From: Frankia sp. AgB32
GTDB taxonomy: Bacteria; Actinomycetota; Actinomycetes; Frankiales; Frankiaceae
Direction: 5' to 3'
Assembly (NCBI RefSeq): GCF_023243045.1
Contig: NZ_JALKFX010000025.1
Location: forward strand, 1-51,962
Length of the DNA stretch: 51,962 nucleotides
Shown here: positions 10,568 through 17,172 of the stretch, piece by piece
Layout: each line of letters begins with the position of its first letter
Position numbering within the stretch: the first letter of the stretch is position 1
Made by a program: the position numbers and the translations under genes
Notes under the pieces: model-generated
The model's database searches: none
The model's input: only the letters and a program-made list of their open reading frames with translations
Told to the model about the DNA's origin: nothing

Positions 10568-10864
10568 GGCCCGACAAGCCTCACCGACGCGATGCGGATC
10601 ATCAAGGAGGACTTCGGGCACCCGGCGTTCCTGCCCCGCGCCGGTGACCCCGCCGAGATCGGCCCGGTCATCGCCTTCGTCGGGTCCCGCGTCACCAGCT
10701 ACCTGACCGGCGCGAACATCAACGTCGACGGCGGCAGCGACTTCCAGGACGTCTCCTGGCGCGTGACGTCGGTCGGTCGCCTCGAGGCGACCGGCTCTGT
10801 CGGCGCAGGTGGGCACCTCAGCGACGTCCAGGCCGCCCCGCCGGCCGCGCGGCGCGCAGGATGA
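10568..10864 (+). pseudogene. C-terminal remnant of a short-chain dehydrogenase/enoyl reductase
   Basis: The frame reads GPTSLTDAMRIIKEDFG, then RAGDPAEIGPVIAFVG and SRVTSYLTGANINVDGGSDF. This is the hallmark C-terminal part of SDR proteins (PG.T...DAM, P.EI..V.AFL.S...Y.TG....DGG). The N-terminal Rossmann motif TGxxxGxG and the catalytic YxxxK are missing upstream. The frame also runs past the usual end of the family. Both point to a truncated relic next to the ketosynthase gene. Confidence 0.6.
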
Positions 10865-11321
10865 CGACGCCCAGGGCAGGGGCACGCAGCGCGATCAGCG
10901 TGCCGCCGGCCGCGCGGTCGACGAGGACCGTCAGGCGGTGCTGGGCGCAACGGGCACGCAGCAGTTCGACCCGGGTGTCCTCGGACAGGATGTCGCGGTG
11001 GGCACGGCCGAAGGCCAGGCCGTCGGCCCGGGCTCCGGCGGGAGGCCGGCCGGCGGCCCAGGACAGGAACCGGGCGGCGAAACCGGGCTCGGCCGCGAGT
11101 GCCGGCCAGTGGCGCGCGACGCTGTCGCGGCGTTTGGCGAGCAGCACCTGGCGGGTCGCGTCCAAGGCCGTCGGGTCGAATCCCGGCGGGTCGGCCACGC
11201 CGGCGACCAACGCCGTGAGCAGCGCGGACTGCCCGACCGCCAGCCGTGCCCGCACAACATCAAGATCATATTGTTCGGTGACGCCACACCCGGTGCCGGC
11301 CCGCTCAGCCGCCGCATCCAC
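10818..11321 (-). CDS. Putative partner protein of the MNIO (DUF692) enzyme
   Basis: A mainly helical protein of about 167 residues, third gene of the MNIO operon. The core (RARLAVGQSALLTALVAGV, ADPPGFDPTALDATRQVLL, KRRDSVARHWPALA, FLSWAAGRPP) resembles small proteins I recall next to DUF692 genes in other actinobacteria. MNIO enzymes usually work with a partner that binds the substrate (MbnC- or DUF2063-like), and I infer that role here. The GTG at 11321 overlaps the end of the Gly/Cys-rich gene and couples the two; a GTG inside VVRARL is an alternative start. No enzyme motif or membrane segment is evident. Confidence 0.6.
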   Translation of the reverse strand: MDAAAERAGTGCGVTEQYDLDVVRARLAVGQSALLTALVAGVADPPGFDPTALDATRQVLLAKRRDSVARHWPALAAEPGFAARFLSWAAGRPPAGARADGLAFGRAHRDILSEDTRVELLRARCAQHRLTVLVDRAAGGTLIALRAPALGVVILRAARPAGRPGRR

Positions 11322-11616
11322 CGCCACATCCACCACCCCCATCGCCGCCACCGCATCCCCCACCACCGTGGTCACCGCCATGACCACCGTGGTGACCACC
11401 GCCGTCGCGGCCATCGGACCCGCCGAACAGGCCGTACCCGCCGAGGAACTCCCCGCCGCTGCCGTCGGCGCGCCCGCCGTGCGCGGCGCGTCGGGAGCTG
11501 CGGCGGTCGGGCTCACGCCACCGGCCGACGTAGGCACGGTCACGTATCCACACGACCAGGCGATACGCCGCCACCAGGAGCAGCCCCAGGATGATCAGCA
11601 GCACGACGTCCTTCAC
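11305..11616 (-). CDS. Membrane-anchored Gly/His/Cys-rich protein, predicted MNIO substrate
   Basis: A 103-residue protein with one N-terminal transmembrane helix (VVLLIILGLLLVAAYRLVVW, residues 4-23), a basic stretch (residues 25-44) and a long Gly-rich tail. The tail holds a His cluster (His75, 76, 79, 83) and three Cys (88, 97, 101) in repeats such as GGGGCGGG, ending CGGGCGG. Actinobacterial membrane proteins of the TIGR04222 type carry similar Gly/Cys tails and are encoded with DUF692 enzymes, but this protein lacks that larger domain. The start is the GTG of a GTGA overlap with the MNIO stop, with GGAGG 5 bases upstream. I infer that the Cys tail is the site of MNIO modification. Confidence 0.75.
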   Translation of the reverse strand: MKDVVLLIILGLLLVAAYRLVVWIRDRAYVGRWREPDRRSSRRAAHGGRADGSGGEFLGGYGLFGGSDGRDGGGHHGGHGGDHGGGGCGGGDGGGGCGGGCGG

Positions 11617-12473
11617 CATGACCTCCACCGCGTTCGTGAGGACAGCGGACGGTGCACGCCGGCCGCGGCGGTGCGGACCAGGTCGCACTCGGCGTAGAAC
11701 GTCGCGGGCGGGGGATAGCGGCCGTCCCGTTCGAGCAGGTAGGCGGCACGCCCGGGCGGGAACCGCCCGACGGCGTCGGCGAGCAGCGTCAGCTGCGGCG
11801 CCCCGACCGGGTGCAGATGGGTGTCGTGATAGCGACCCTGGCGCATCACGCCCCCCGCGACATGCAGGTAGGCAACCCGTTCCCAGGGCAGCCGGTCGAA
11901 CGCCTCGACCGGGTCATGACCATGGTTGATCATGTCGCCGTGGAGGTTCGCGACGTCGACGAGCAGCAGCGCGCCGCTGCGTTCGGCCAGCTCGGTCAGG
12001 AAGTCGGCGGGTGCCAGCTCGTCATCGGGCCAGTGCAGCAACGCGGCCGTGTTCTCCAGCGCCAGCGGCGCCGGCAGCTCCGCGCAGGCGATCCGGACGT
12101 TCGCGACCAGCACGTCGAGCGCGTCGCGGGTGTAGGGAACCGGCAGCAGATGGCCCGCGTCGTAGCCGCCCGCCCGCACGAACGCGACATGCTCGCTGAC
12201 CAGCGGGGCGCCGAACGCCTCGGCGACGGCGGCGAGGCGGCGAAGCCTCGCCGGGTCGGGTCGCTCGGCCCCGCCGAGAGACAGGCCGATGCCGTGCACC
12301 ACGACCGGCACGCCCAGCTCCCCCGGCGACGGCCCCGCGGGCGCCGACGCGTGGCCGCCACCGAGCGCGACGTTCTCCGCGATCACCTCGACGAACCGCA
12401 GCCCGGCACACCCGCCGAGCATCCCGGCCAGCTCCGGCCGCCAGCCGACTCCGAACCCCGCCACCGCCGACAC
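11613..12473 (-). CDS. MNIO family (DUF692) multinuclear iron oxidative enzyme
   Basis: A 286-residue TIM-barrel protein of the DUF692/MbnB family, iron enzymes that oxidatively modify Cys residues in ribosomal peptides (for example to oxazolone/thioamide in methanobactin). The predicted metal ligands are intact: His60 (VVVHGIG), Glu94-His95 (SEHVAF), Glu140-Asn141 (ALENTA), Asp173/Asn176/His178 (VDVANLHGD), His204 (YLHVAG), Asp217/His219 (HDTHLHP) and Glu249 (LLERDG). The start is a GTG at 12473, with another GTG nine bases downstream also possible. It is the first gene of a three-gene operon with overlapping frames, followed by a Gly/Cys-rich membrane protein, its likely substrate. Confidence 0.88.
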   Translation of the reverse strand: MSAVAGFGVGWRPELAGMLGGCAGLRFVEVIAENVALGGGHASAPAGPSPGELGVPVVVHGIGLSLGGAERPDPARLRRLAAVAEAFGAPLVSEHVAFVRAGGYDAGHLLPVPYTRDALDVLVANVRIACAELPAPLALENTAALLHWPDDELAPADFLTELAERSGALLLVDVANLHGDMINHGHDPVEAFDRLPWERVAYLHVAGGVMRQGRYHDTHLHPVGAPQLTLLADAVGRFPPGRAAYLLERDGRYPPPATFYAECDLVRTAAAGVHRPLSSRTRWRSW

Positions 12474-12597
12474 TCCACGATCGTCGCAGAACACCGGCCG
12501 GTCGGTCCTCCCCTGTCCCCCTCCTGACTGCCGGCCTGATCACCGTGCTGGTTCGCCGTTCCCGCGCGGGTCGCCGCGGCCCGTCGCACCGCACCCG

Positions 12598-12615
12598 CAC
12601 CGGGACGTCCCGGTG
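12598..12615. promoter_or_regulatory. 18-bp perfect palindrome upstream of the MNIO operon
   Basis: CACCGGGACGTCCCGGTG is identical on both strands and lies about 125 bases before the MNIO start. Nothing else occupies this gap except the tail of a broken globin frame. It could be a repressor operator for the operon; with such high GC, chance palindromes are also possible. Confidence 0.35.
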
Positions 12616-12661
12616 GATGTCCCGCCGATGTCCGGTCCTCGCACCAGTTCTCGGGACGTTC

Positions 12662-12931
12662 CTCCCTGATCGGTACGAACGTGAGACGGTGCGGGACCCC
12701 GGCGTGCGCGGCGGCGGGTTCCCCGCTGGTGCAGGACTTCGGGCCGGTGCAGGACTTCGGGTCGCCGGTCGCCCTCACCAGGAACGCCGCCTGGTGGGCC
12801 TTGAGCGAGGCCAGGTCGACCCCGGTGAAGTACGGCGCGAGCAGCGGATCGGCGAGGACACGGTCGTAGAAGTCGGCCGCCACCGCGACGATGGAGCTTT
12901 CCCGACCCAGGGGCTCGTCCAGCGTTGTCAT
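12662..12931 (-). pseudogene. Truncated haemoglobin (group I-like), C-terminally broken
   Basis: The ATG at 12931 opens MTTLDEPLGRESSIVAVAAD, FYDRVLADPLLAPYFTGVDL and ASLKAHQAAFL, a clear trHbN-type N-terminal half (helices A to E). AAAHAG, which would carry the proximal His, follows, but the remaining G and H helices are lost and the frame runs on as Arg/Gly-rich shadow sequence. A perfect 18-bp tandem duplication inserts six residues (KSCTGP/KSCTSG) just before the break. Loss of the C-terminal helices should prevent folding, so I call it a pseudogene. Confidence 0.6.
12728..12763. repeat. 18-bp tandem duplication in the globin remnant
   Basis: GGTGCAGGACTTCGGGCC is followed directly by a copy with one base changed (GGTGCAGGACTTCGGGTC). 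The duplication keeps the frame and adds six residues within the remnant of the truncated haemoglobin, near where similarity to the family begins to fade. Confidence 0.75.
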
Positions 12932-15595: not shown

Positions 15596-16801
15596 TCAGC
15601 GGGCGGAGGTGACCCCGGAGCGGCGGGGGCGCCGCCTGCTCGCCCGCTCGCCGGGGGTGCGTGGCGCCGGCGCGCCGGTCCCCGCCGGCGCATCGGGATG
15701 ATCCCCGCGGCGGCTCTCGGCGTCCCGGGCGATGCCGCAGGGGTCGTTCTCACCGGGCGCGCACGGTTCGCATTCCGCTTCGATGGTGACGTGGGTGAGG
15801 CCGTGGCGGGCAGCGAGCATCGACTTGAGCTCGCCGGCGACGACGCGGGCCTGGGCCAGGCTGGGATGGCCGCCGTCGACGCCGTCGGCCGGGTCGAGGT
15901 GGCCGAGGGTGACGTGCACGGAGGCGGCGTGGACCCGGTCGGACAGGCTCCACACGTGCAGGTCGTGCACGTCGAGAACCCGGTCGTCGCGCAGGATGTC
16001 CGCGCGGACCGCGGCGACGTCGAGGCTTTCCGGGGTCTCCTCCAGCAGGACCCGCGACGCGCTGACGAGCAGCCGGGCGCCCTGCGCGGCGATCAGCAGC
16101 GAGATCACCAACGACACCACCGGGTCGAGCCAGTAGGCGCCACCGGTCAGCCAGATCACCGCGCCGCTGGCCGCGACCGCGACCGACACGACGGCGTCGC
16201 CGGCCAGGTGCAGCACCGCGGCACGGGTGTTCAGGTCGGCGTCGCGTTCGCGCACGACCAGCGCGCTCAGCCCGTTGACCAGCGCGGCGAACAGCGCCAC
16301 CGCGACGACGACCGGGCCGTCGACCGTCCCGGACCCGCCCAGGCGGCGCAGCGCCTCCACGGCCAGCAGCGCGGTGACCACCAGGACGGTCGCGGCGTTG
16401 GCCTGCGCGGCGAGCACCGGCCAGCGCACCCCGCCGAAGGTGCGCCGCGCCGACGGTGGCCGGCGTGACAGGCTGATCGCGACGAGGGCGAGCGCGACGC
16501 CGGCGGTGTCGGTGAGGTTGTGCCCGGCGTCGGCGAGCAGGCCGACGGAACCCGCCGCGACCCCGGCGACCGTCTGGCCGACGACAATCGCGAGGTTCAG
16601 CCACGTCGCCAGCCACAGCCGGCGGCGCTGCGACGCCGTCGTGCGCCCGGACGGCACCCCGTGATGATGCCCATGCCCCGCAGCACCATGCCCATGCCCG
16701 GCTCCCGAGCCGTGATCGGCGCCGTGATCGTGCGCGGTGGGCCCCTCGGCGTGGTCGTCATGGAGGTCGGCGGGCGGCCCGGTGCCGTTCGGGGCCGTCA
16801 T
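15596..16801 (-). CDS. Cation diffusion facilitator (CzcD/ZitB-like metal exporter)
   Basis: A 401-residue inner-membrane metal/proton antiporter. Residues 20-48 are a His-rich cytoplasmic N-terminus (HGHGAAGHGHHHG) that can load metal. The TM2 site is in LLADAGHNLTD and the TM5 site in HLAGDAVVS, the HxxxD arrangement of Zn/Cd-type CDF proteins. The C-terminal domain (VHDLHVWSLSDRVHAASVHV) is the usual metallochaperone-like fold, ending in a Cys-containing tail (ECEPCAPGENDPCG). Its ATG overlaps the ArsR stop by 4 bases (ATGA), so the repressor and exporter form one operon. Zn, Cd or Ni are possible substrates. Confidence 0.92.
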   Translation of the reverse strand: MTAPNGTGPPADLHDDHAEGPTAHDHGADHGSGAGHGHGAAGHGHHHGVPSGRTTASQRRRLWLATWLNLAIVVGQTVAGVAAGSVGLLADAGHNLTDTAGVALALVAISLSRRPPSARRTFGGVRWPVLAAQANAATVLVVTALLAVEALRRLGGSGTVDGPVVVAVALFAALVNGLSALVVRERDADLNTRAAVLHLAGDAVVSVAVAASGAVIWLTGGAYWLDPVVSLVISLLIAAQGARLLVSASRVLLEETPESLDVAAVRADILRDDRVLDVHDLHVWSLSDRVHAASVHVTLGHLDPADGVDGGHPSLAQARVVAGELKSMLAARHGLTHVTIEAECEPCAPGENDPCGIARDAESRRGDHPDAPAGTGAPAPRTPGERASRRRPRRSGVTSAR

Positions 16802-17172
16802 GACCCGCTCACCGCCACTCCCGCAAGGTCGGGATCGGGTGCCTCGCCCGCGGCCGGCTCGCCGGTGTGGACGTGGTCGGTGTCGACGGCGAGGACGACG
16901 TCGAGCAGGTCACCGAGGGCGTGGCGCAGCTTGTCGTCGGCGAGTTCGTAGCGCTGCCGGCGGCCCTCCGGGGTGGCGACGACCAGGCCGCAGCCGCGCA
17001 GGCAGGCGAGATGGTTCGACAGGTTCGTGCGGCCCACGCCGAGGATCTCGGCGAGGTCCGACGGGTAGGCCGCGCCGGAACGCAGCACGAGCAGCAGCCG
17101 GGCGCGGGTCGGATCGGACAGCGCGTGCCCGAAGCGAGCCAGCACCTCCGCCGACGACGCGATCGTCACCAT
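16798..17172 (-). CDS. ArsR/SmtB-family metal sensor, CmtR-like
   Basis: A 124-residue winged-helix repressor, first gene of an operon with a CDF exporter. The recognition helix SNHLACLRGCGLVV carries Cys57 and Cys61, at the same positions as the Cd/Pb-binding cysteines of mycobacterial CmtR. In CmtR the third ligand is Cys102 in a C-terminal DTDQPC segment; here the aligned DTDHVH has His100 and His102 instead. Derepression by metal is expected. The altered third ligand suggests a different preference (Zn or another borderline ion), which is inference. An upstream palindrome is the likely operator. Confidence 0.9.
   Translation of the reverse strand: MVTIASSAEVLARFGHALSDPTRARLLLVLRSGAAYPSDLAEILGVGRTNLSNHLACLRGCGLVVATPEGRRQRYELADDKLRHALGDLLDVVLAVDTDHVHTGEPAAGEAPDPDLAGVAVSGS

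Follow-up and report, generated by a model that had tools for sequence, protein, structure and literature searches.

Most MNIO products described in the papers considered here are small peptides, which are often exported or produced with export in view. What, then, does an MNIO enzyme do when the gene next to its own encodes a small protein with a predicted membrane anchor and a tail of Gly, His and Cys? The question is raised by a locus of Frankia sp. AgB32, located within 51,962 nucleotides of contig NZ_JALKFX010000025.1 (here called the window). A first-pass annotation had proposed an MNIO operon with the Gly/His/Cys protein as its likely substrate, and a gene unit of three minus-strand genes is indeed present. 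The reading that we favour, with a probability of roughly 60 %, is a minimal MNIO system in which the enzyme and a PME-type 2 partner would modify a cytosolic, membrane-tethered Cys-Gly tail, which would then hold a soft metal. A search of the accessible literature found no paper joining MNIO with Frankia.

The three genes

The MNIO gene (MbnB/TglH/ChrH, formerly DUF692) lies at 11613..12473 on the minus strand. It starts at GTG 12473 or at an upstream GTG at 12494, up to which the frame is open, and ends at 11613. Its product is placed in the MNIO superfamily by PF05114 (231 bits, E 1.8e-68, cut-off 25), by invariant residues and by matches to 3bww and TglH (8hci), and is the only MNIO of the whole 6.68-Mb assembly. 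With 161 bits against an NCBIfam cut-off of 310 it is not of the BufB type, and it also falls below the NCBIfam cut-offs of the other named types. The annotation had credited the enzyme with all predicted iron ligands, which agrees with the alignment: H57, E91-H92, E137-N138, D170, N173, H201, H213-D214, H216 and E245 of the aligned segment, positions matched to 3bww and TglH (8hci) by sequence alignment alone, are invariant in nine relatives, and they include the residues that we take to bind iron. The named relatives, which put the window in the Frankia group, are Frankia sp. R82, Ca. Frankia nodulisporulans, Pseudofrankia sp. BMG5.36, P. asymbiotica, Frankia sp. AgB1.9 and F. nepalensis; a plasmid search returned four distant matches to the locus, and both of those having gene annotation are DUF692. 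Running up to the MNIO gene, at 12600-12931 on the minus strand, is a bacterial globin match (PF01152) confined to the first half of the profile (positions 4-62 of 121), which suggests a truncated globin gene.

The small gene extends from its ATG at 11619 to its stop at 11305 (11305..11619, minus). Since this ATG precedes the MNIO stop TGA at 11615-11613, the two genes overlap; the start candidates of the partner, in-frame ATG or GTG codons between 11387 and 11321, all lie inside the small gene, so the three genes overlap as annotated. The short protein announced earlier is there, with 104 residues and not 103. It contains 35 % Gly, 5 His and 3 Cys and has one hydrophobic helix at residues 5-23 (11551..11607, minus), the single transmembrane segment expected from the annotation and the basis of the predicted membrane anchor. 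A basic stretch with 8 Arg/Lys against 3 Asp/Glu follows at residues 24-48 (11476..11550, minus) and is predicted to be cytosolic. The tail carries Cys 89 (11353..11355), Cys 98 (11326..11328) and Cys 102 (11314..11316), all on the minus strand and each followed by Gly; their spacings of 8 and 3 reproduce the annotated C-X8-C-X3-C pattern, the final Cys standing two residues before the end.

The family has eight members at seven loci, among them a tandem pair of 60 and 90 residues in Pseudofrankia BMG5.36; its alignment (A3) was made without the small protein of genome G030. All eight end in C-G(3-5)-C-GG and thus keep the counterparts of Cys 98 and Cys 102, while the number of Cys per protein varies from 2 to 9. 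Gly follows the tail Cys at 38 of 38 sites, counted from residue 31 on in the eight short proteins; for 95 other tail proteins the residue is Gly at 406 of 499 sites, Ser at 69 and Ala at 20.

Three results rule out a chance or spurious open reading frame. The pattern C-G3/4-C-GG occurs four times in the 6.68-Mb assembly (a control pattern, 16 times), and the sole in-frame copy, as judged by reading, is that in the small gene. Base differences fall on codon position 3 in 51-69 % of cases for five pairs of relatives (11/16, 21/32, 19/33, 18/35 and 58/114), where a third would be expected without selection. Finally, a profile search of 35 Frankiaceae genomes, made so as to look beyond MNIO neighbourhoods, recovered the protein in at least seven genomes, at seven places that, among the matches listed, all adjoin MNIO; the 60-residue copy fell under the threshold. 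Kept Cys residues and a constant place beside MNIO, both of which the annotation had wanted to see in homologues, are thus found, and the small system is, at the level of sequence, real and well conserved.

The third gene, with its conserved part at 11306-10821 and its stop at 10818 (together 10818..11306, minus), encodes the putative partner, recognised by co-occurrence, an AlphaFold model and structural matches. Of 114 distinct MNIO loci, 109 carry a homologue after MNIO, in the same orientation. The model (pLDDT 91.3) has six helices and then three strands; the annotated small helical partner is hence helical but not merely so, its predicted fold being that of MNIO partners and ending in a C-terminal part of three strands. 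No Pfam family matches the window partner, and the DUF2063 profile matches three of the 49 members used (out of 59 sequences, alignment A4), with a best E of 0.002. Foldseek gave no match to the model below E 0.001, its top row being 7dz9_C of the MbnABC complex (E 6.5e-3, probability 0.99). The seven best rows in VIA are MNIO-partner chains (TglI, NGO1945 and MbnC, identified from titles and lengths), namely 8hi7_A (Z 6.7, rmsd 6.1, 142 aligned), 8hci_A (6.5), 3dee (5.9, rmsd 7.2, 113 aligned), 7dz9_C (5.0), 7tcr_C (4.7), 7fc0_C (4.7) and 7tcu_C (4.2), with the eighth row at 3.2; every Z is below 8, and such values alone can mean a common arrangement. On the model, the partner belongs to the PME-type 2 class as described in the accessible text of PMC12452194, with the predicted fold of NGO1945 and TglI. 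Converging on its gene from the plus strand, at 10592-10864, there is only an SDR C-terminus (adh_short_C2, slightly below the cut-off with 26 bits), probably a gene remnant. A promoter and terminator scan found neither.

The membrane side of the tail

The charge difference across the helix, taken over 25-residue flanks, ranges from +2 to +7 in all seven short proteins compared. The same count gave +7, +6 and +3 for three TatA proteins of the same genome, which we take to be N-out/C-in, and +1 for DivIC and +1, +1, -5 and -3 for LCP proteins, presumably N-in/C-out (a further LCP control, L210, yielded no row); with 15-residue flanks the groups overlap (DivIC +2, one TatA +1). An Arg cluster stands directly after the helix in 7/7 short proteins and predicts an N-out/C-in orientation, so that the tail would face the cytosol, where MNIO works. 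These TatA-like charges, read by a rule of thumb, suggest a cytosolic tail.

The larger TIGR04222-type proteins give a similar picture. Beyond the short Frankiaceae loci there are 95 tail proteins, of which 75 gave a three-helix pattern. In equal 12-residue windows the net charge of these 75 is positive behind helix 1 in 70 cases, ahead of helix 2 in 67 and behind helix 3 in 69, against 14 for the hairpin. In 73 of 75 proteins the inner windows have a higher mean charge than the hairpin; one protein shows equality and one the reverse (the figure used here; an earlier version with unequal windows gave 75/75). This suggests that TIGR04222 tails, too, would be cytosolic, contrary to their placement in the periplasm, from predicted topology, in the accessible text of PMC12452194. 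A winged-helix or GPP34-like nature of the TIGR04222 domain was considered as a further cytosolic support and abandoned: Foldseek had no match below E 1.9, VIA gave a mixed list that tied ferritins, a phage Mu protein and Vps74 near Z 7, and Pfam gave weak matches only (HTH_Crp_2 in 8/63, HTH_20 in 5/63, GPP34 in 3/63).

The annotation had spoken of a surface protein, and a tail that receives its modification in the cytosol but is finally displayed outside, to bind metal at the surface, would be in line with the published view of TIGR04222 proteins, whose tails are put in the periplasm, and with bufferins, which are made inside and then exported (PMC12452194, accessible text). However, the small protein shows no evident signal peptide pattern, as judged from hydrophobicity and charge, its N-terminus being hydrophobic and then followed by the Arg cluster. 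This cluster sets all seven short proteins apart from the N-in/C-out controls, and the inner windows of TIGR04222-type proteins also speak against an outside tail. We thus regard a surface location, which these data do not support, as unlikely.

Relation to TIGR04222 loci, and losses

By sequence comparison, the locus belongs with the published TIGR04222-MNIO-PME2 loci of actinobacteria: the partner family and the tail type are common to short-carrier and TIGR04222 loci. Over a wider sample, larger membrane proteins carry the tail; their gene usually precedes MNIO and, in family f18, follows the partner. As a control, 60 of 63 other tail proteins scanned (the 63 used in alignment A5, out of 102 collected) match the TIGR04222 profile. 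None of seven short proteins does so at E up to 10, and the whole window assembly is without a match, in keeping with the annotated absence of this domain from the precursor. In one Frankiaceae clade, a short carrier between MNIO and partner takes the place of an adjacent TIGR04222 protein. The idea that the small protein is a TIGR04222 remnant was rejected for want of a profile match and because its gene position is different; an origin by trimming of a TIGR04222 protein is possible.

In a quick, bootstrap-free MNIO tree, with loci grouped by script as short, TIGR-type or others, the seven Frankiaceae short-carrier loci and genome G028 form one branch (SH-aLRT 96). It is joined by F. nepalensis (SH-aLRT 99), where TIGR04222-type proteins lie on both sides of MNIO and partner. 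The window locus and the Pseudofrankia loci have, by eye, the same neighbours argC and pheT. A one-helix protein like the small one is found after the partner in the tree-distant genome G108, and another occurs in Embleya scabrispora; the short form thus had more than one origin or addition. The three genomes of genus g1 that carry the short system are without any TIGR04222 match, and the five g7 genomes with an MNIO of the clade have an unlinked TIGR04222 protein with a Cys tail. Two further Frankiaceae loci (L025 and L026, the loci of L048 and L053) encode Cys-tailed proteins of about 450 residues before MNIO, in which no membrane helix was detected; they appear to be a different carrier of the same tail, and their lack of a helix agrees with a cytosolic tail.

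The system has been lost in several ways. In a Frankia genome (G001, one contig), the MNIO match begins only at about residue 112-122, the small-gene frame is broken, the remaining tail frame is free of Cys and the partner frame stays open; here, in a single case, the loss of MNIO and that of Cys go together. In F. tisae the front of MNIO is fused to the end of the partner, and G028 has kept MNIO and partner while the small gene is gone. This pattern of loss suggests that the system is accessory and prone to decay. Immediately ahead of the truncated MNIO of G001 (L037, 6547-7170, minus), a sigma-factor-like and an anti-sigma-like reading frame were seen by eye; sigma and anti-sigma genes are reported for Buf1 loci in the accessible text of PMC12452194.

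MNIO can also persist without a linked Cys tail. A branch of 11 distant relatives (f18, SH-aLRT 100) has MNIO and partner with no Cys tail nearby, nine of them with a TIGR04222-like protein that lacks the tail. The search for an unlinked Cys tail that might rescue this branch turned up only G103, ending in a single-Cys Gly tail (plus strand viewed). A tail-less TIGR04222 protein also lies beside MNIO in the Frankia genome G004, and more than a quarter of TIGR04222 proteins are without C-proximal Cys according to the part of PMC12452194 at hand. Linkage thus does not establish the tail as substrate, and other targets may exist for some MNIOs of the group. Such tail-less loci, together with the unlinked Cys-tailed proteins of the five g7 genomes, are what would be expected if the small protein were a membrane anchor or metal chaperone for MNIO and partner, with the true substrate elsewhere. 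The window assembly, however, has no TIGR04222 match and, as judged by reading, no second in-frame C-G3/4-C-GG motif, and the context of the tail Cys residues suits MNIO substrates, which leaves an anchor or chaperone role quite improbable.

Proposed function and known systems

The part assigned to the tail by the annotation, that of likely substrate, is supported by these results. In the minimal system that we propose, MNIO and the PME-type 2 partner would jointly target the terminal Cys-Gly sites of the small protein. Of the membrane-inserted protein only a short N-terminal piece would protrude outside; the Gly/His/Cys tail would lie in the cytosol, where it need not cross the membrane and would stay beside the enzyme. 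FonBC, an MNIO pair that forms thiooxazole, tolerates mainly small residues at the position after Cys; beyond Gly and Ala, most residues there cost it activity, with exceptions such as Cys-Tyr (PMC13097082, accessible text). Per thiooxazole a peptide becomes 4 Da lighter, which for the three Cys of this tail would make at most 12 Da, and absorbance appears near 305 nm (PMC13097082). All tail sites have the Cys-Gly context that FonBC prefers, so by analogy oxidation of the tail Cys, most likely to 5-thiooxazoles or a similar oxidised sulfur ligand, would be expected. The modified tail might then hold a soft metal ion, most likely copper, at the inner membrane face, a role suggested by analogy, the operon itself being without a metal gene. 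An unmodified, metallothionein-like tail binding metal through its thiols, with MNIO idle or acting on something else, would fit the composition and the variable Cys number but is very unlikely, given that the small protein was found only beside MNIO genes (35 genomes, among the matches listed) and that the broken MNIO of G001 is paired with a Cys-less tail, one case.

About 3 kb from the operon, at 15596-17172 on the minus strand, the window encodes a His-rich CDF cation transporter and an ArsR-type regulator. An ArsR-like and His-rich transporter-like pair was also seen, by eye, near the decayed MNIO of G001; the pair is not obvious at other loci. Between 14357 and 15499, on the plus strand, an acetyltransferase-like N-terminal half and a GDSL-like hydrolase half are apparently joined in one reading frame (by eye).

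If the minimal system operates as proposed, a modified tail fixed at the inner membrane face would put MNIO chemistry to a different use, giving the cell a permanent metal site. Among the versions of the putative TIGR04222-type substrate found in this analysis the one-helix carrier is the smallest, and a convenient laboratory handle on a family of thousands of unstudied proteins. More tentatively, and with rather less than an even chance in our view, MNIO and PME2 might modify a portable cytosolic Cys-Gly tail on three-helix TIGR04222, one-helix (arisen at least twice) and two helix-less Frankiaceae carriers alike, yielding a non-exported RiPP-like metal ligand; the published periplasmic placement would then be wrong.

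Among known systems, TatA shares the short outside N-terminus, the single helix and the basic cytosolic side, a likeness of topology only, with no sequence or functional kinship claimed. The adjamnio-V proteins, which are very small, have no known relatives and are encoded right after MNIO, resemble the Frankia small protein, as far as PMC12452194 describes them; their cluster is one of the two largest left over there, so that, going by the description, it is probably not the Frankia family. The captophorins, oxazolin and fontiphorin (MNIO-PME1, EGKCG repeats; PMC13097082, accessible text) likewise pair MNIO and a partner with Cys-Gly sites, and the small residue after Cys that marks captophorins is found at 38/38 sites of the eight short proteins. 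Their partners, however, are DUF2063 (PME1) proteins, whereas the Frankia partner is assigned to PME2 and falls outside DUF2063, and they carry Sec signal peptides (PMC12452194, in the part considered) where the Frankia carrier has a predicted membrane anchor. The closest likeness is with the TIGR04222-MNIO-PME type 2 loci of Antoine et al. 2025 (PMC12452194), whose accessible text makes no mention of Frankia. Related MNIO and partner families occur on both sides, together with a Gly/Ser-rich C-terminal Cys tail, no evident signal peptide and a membrane protein as putative substrate. In contrast to the TIGR04222 loci, the Frankia carrier has one helix and no TIGR04222 domain, its gene stands between those of MNIO and partner and not before MNIO or after the partner, and its tail is predicted to face the cytosol and not, as that text has it for TIGR04222 proteins, the periplasm. 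To the published picture this locus would add a carrier with a single helix, a gene order that puts this carrier between enzyme and partner, and a tail predicted to be cytosolic.
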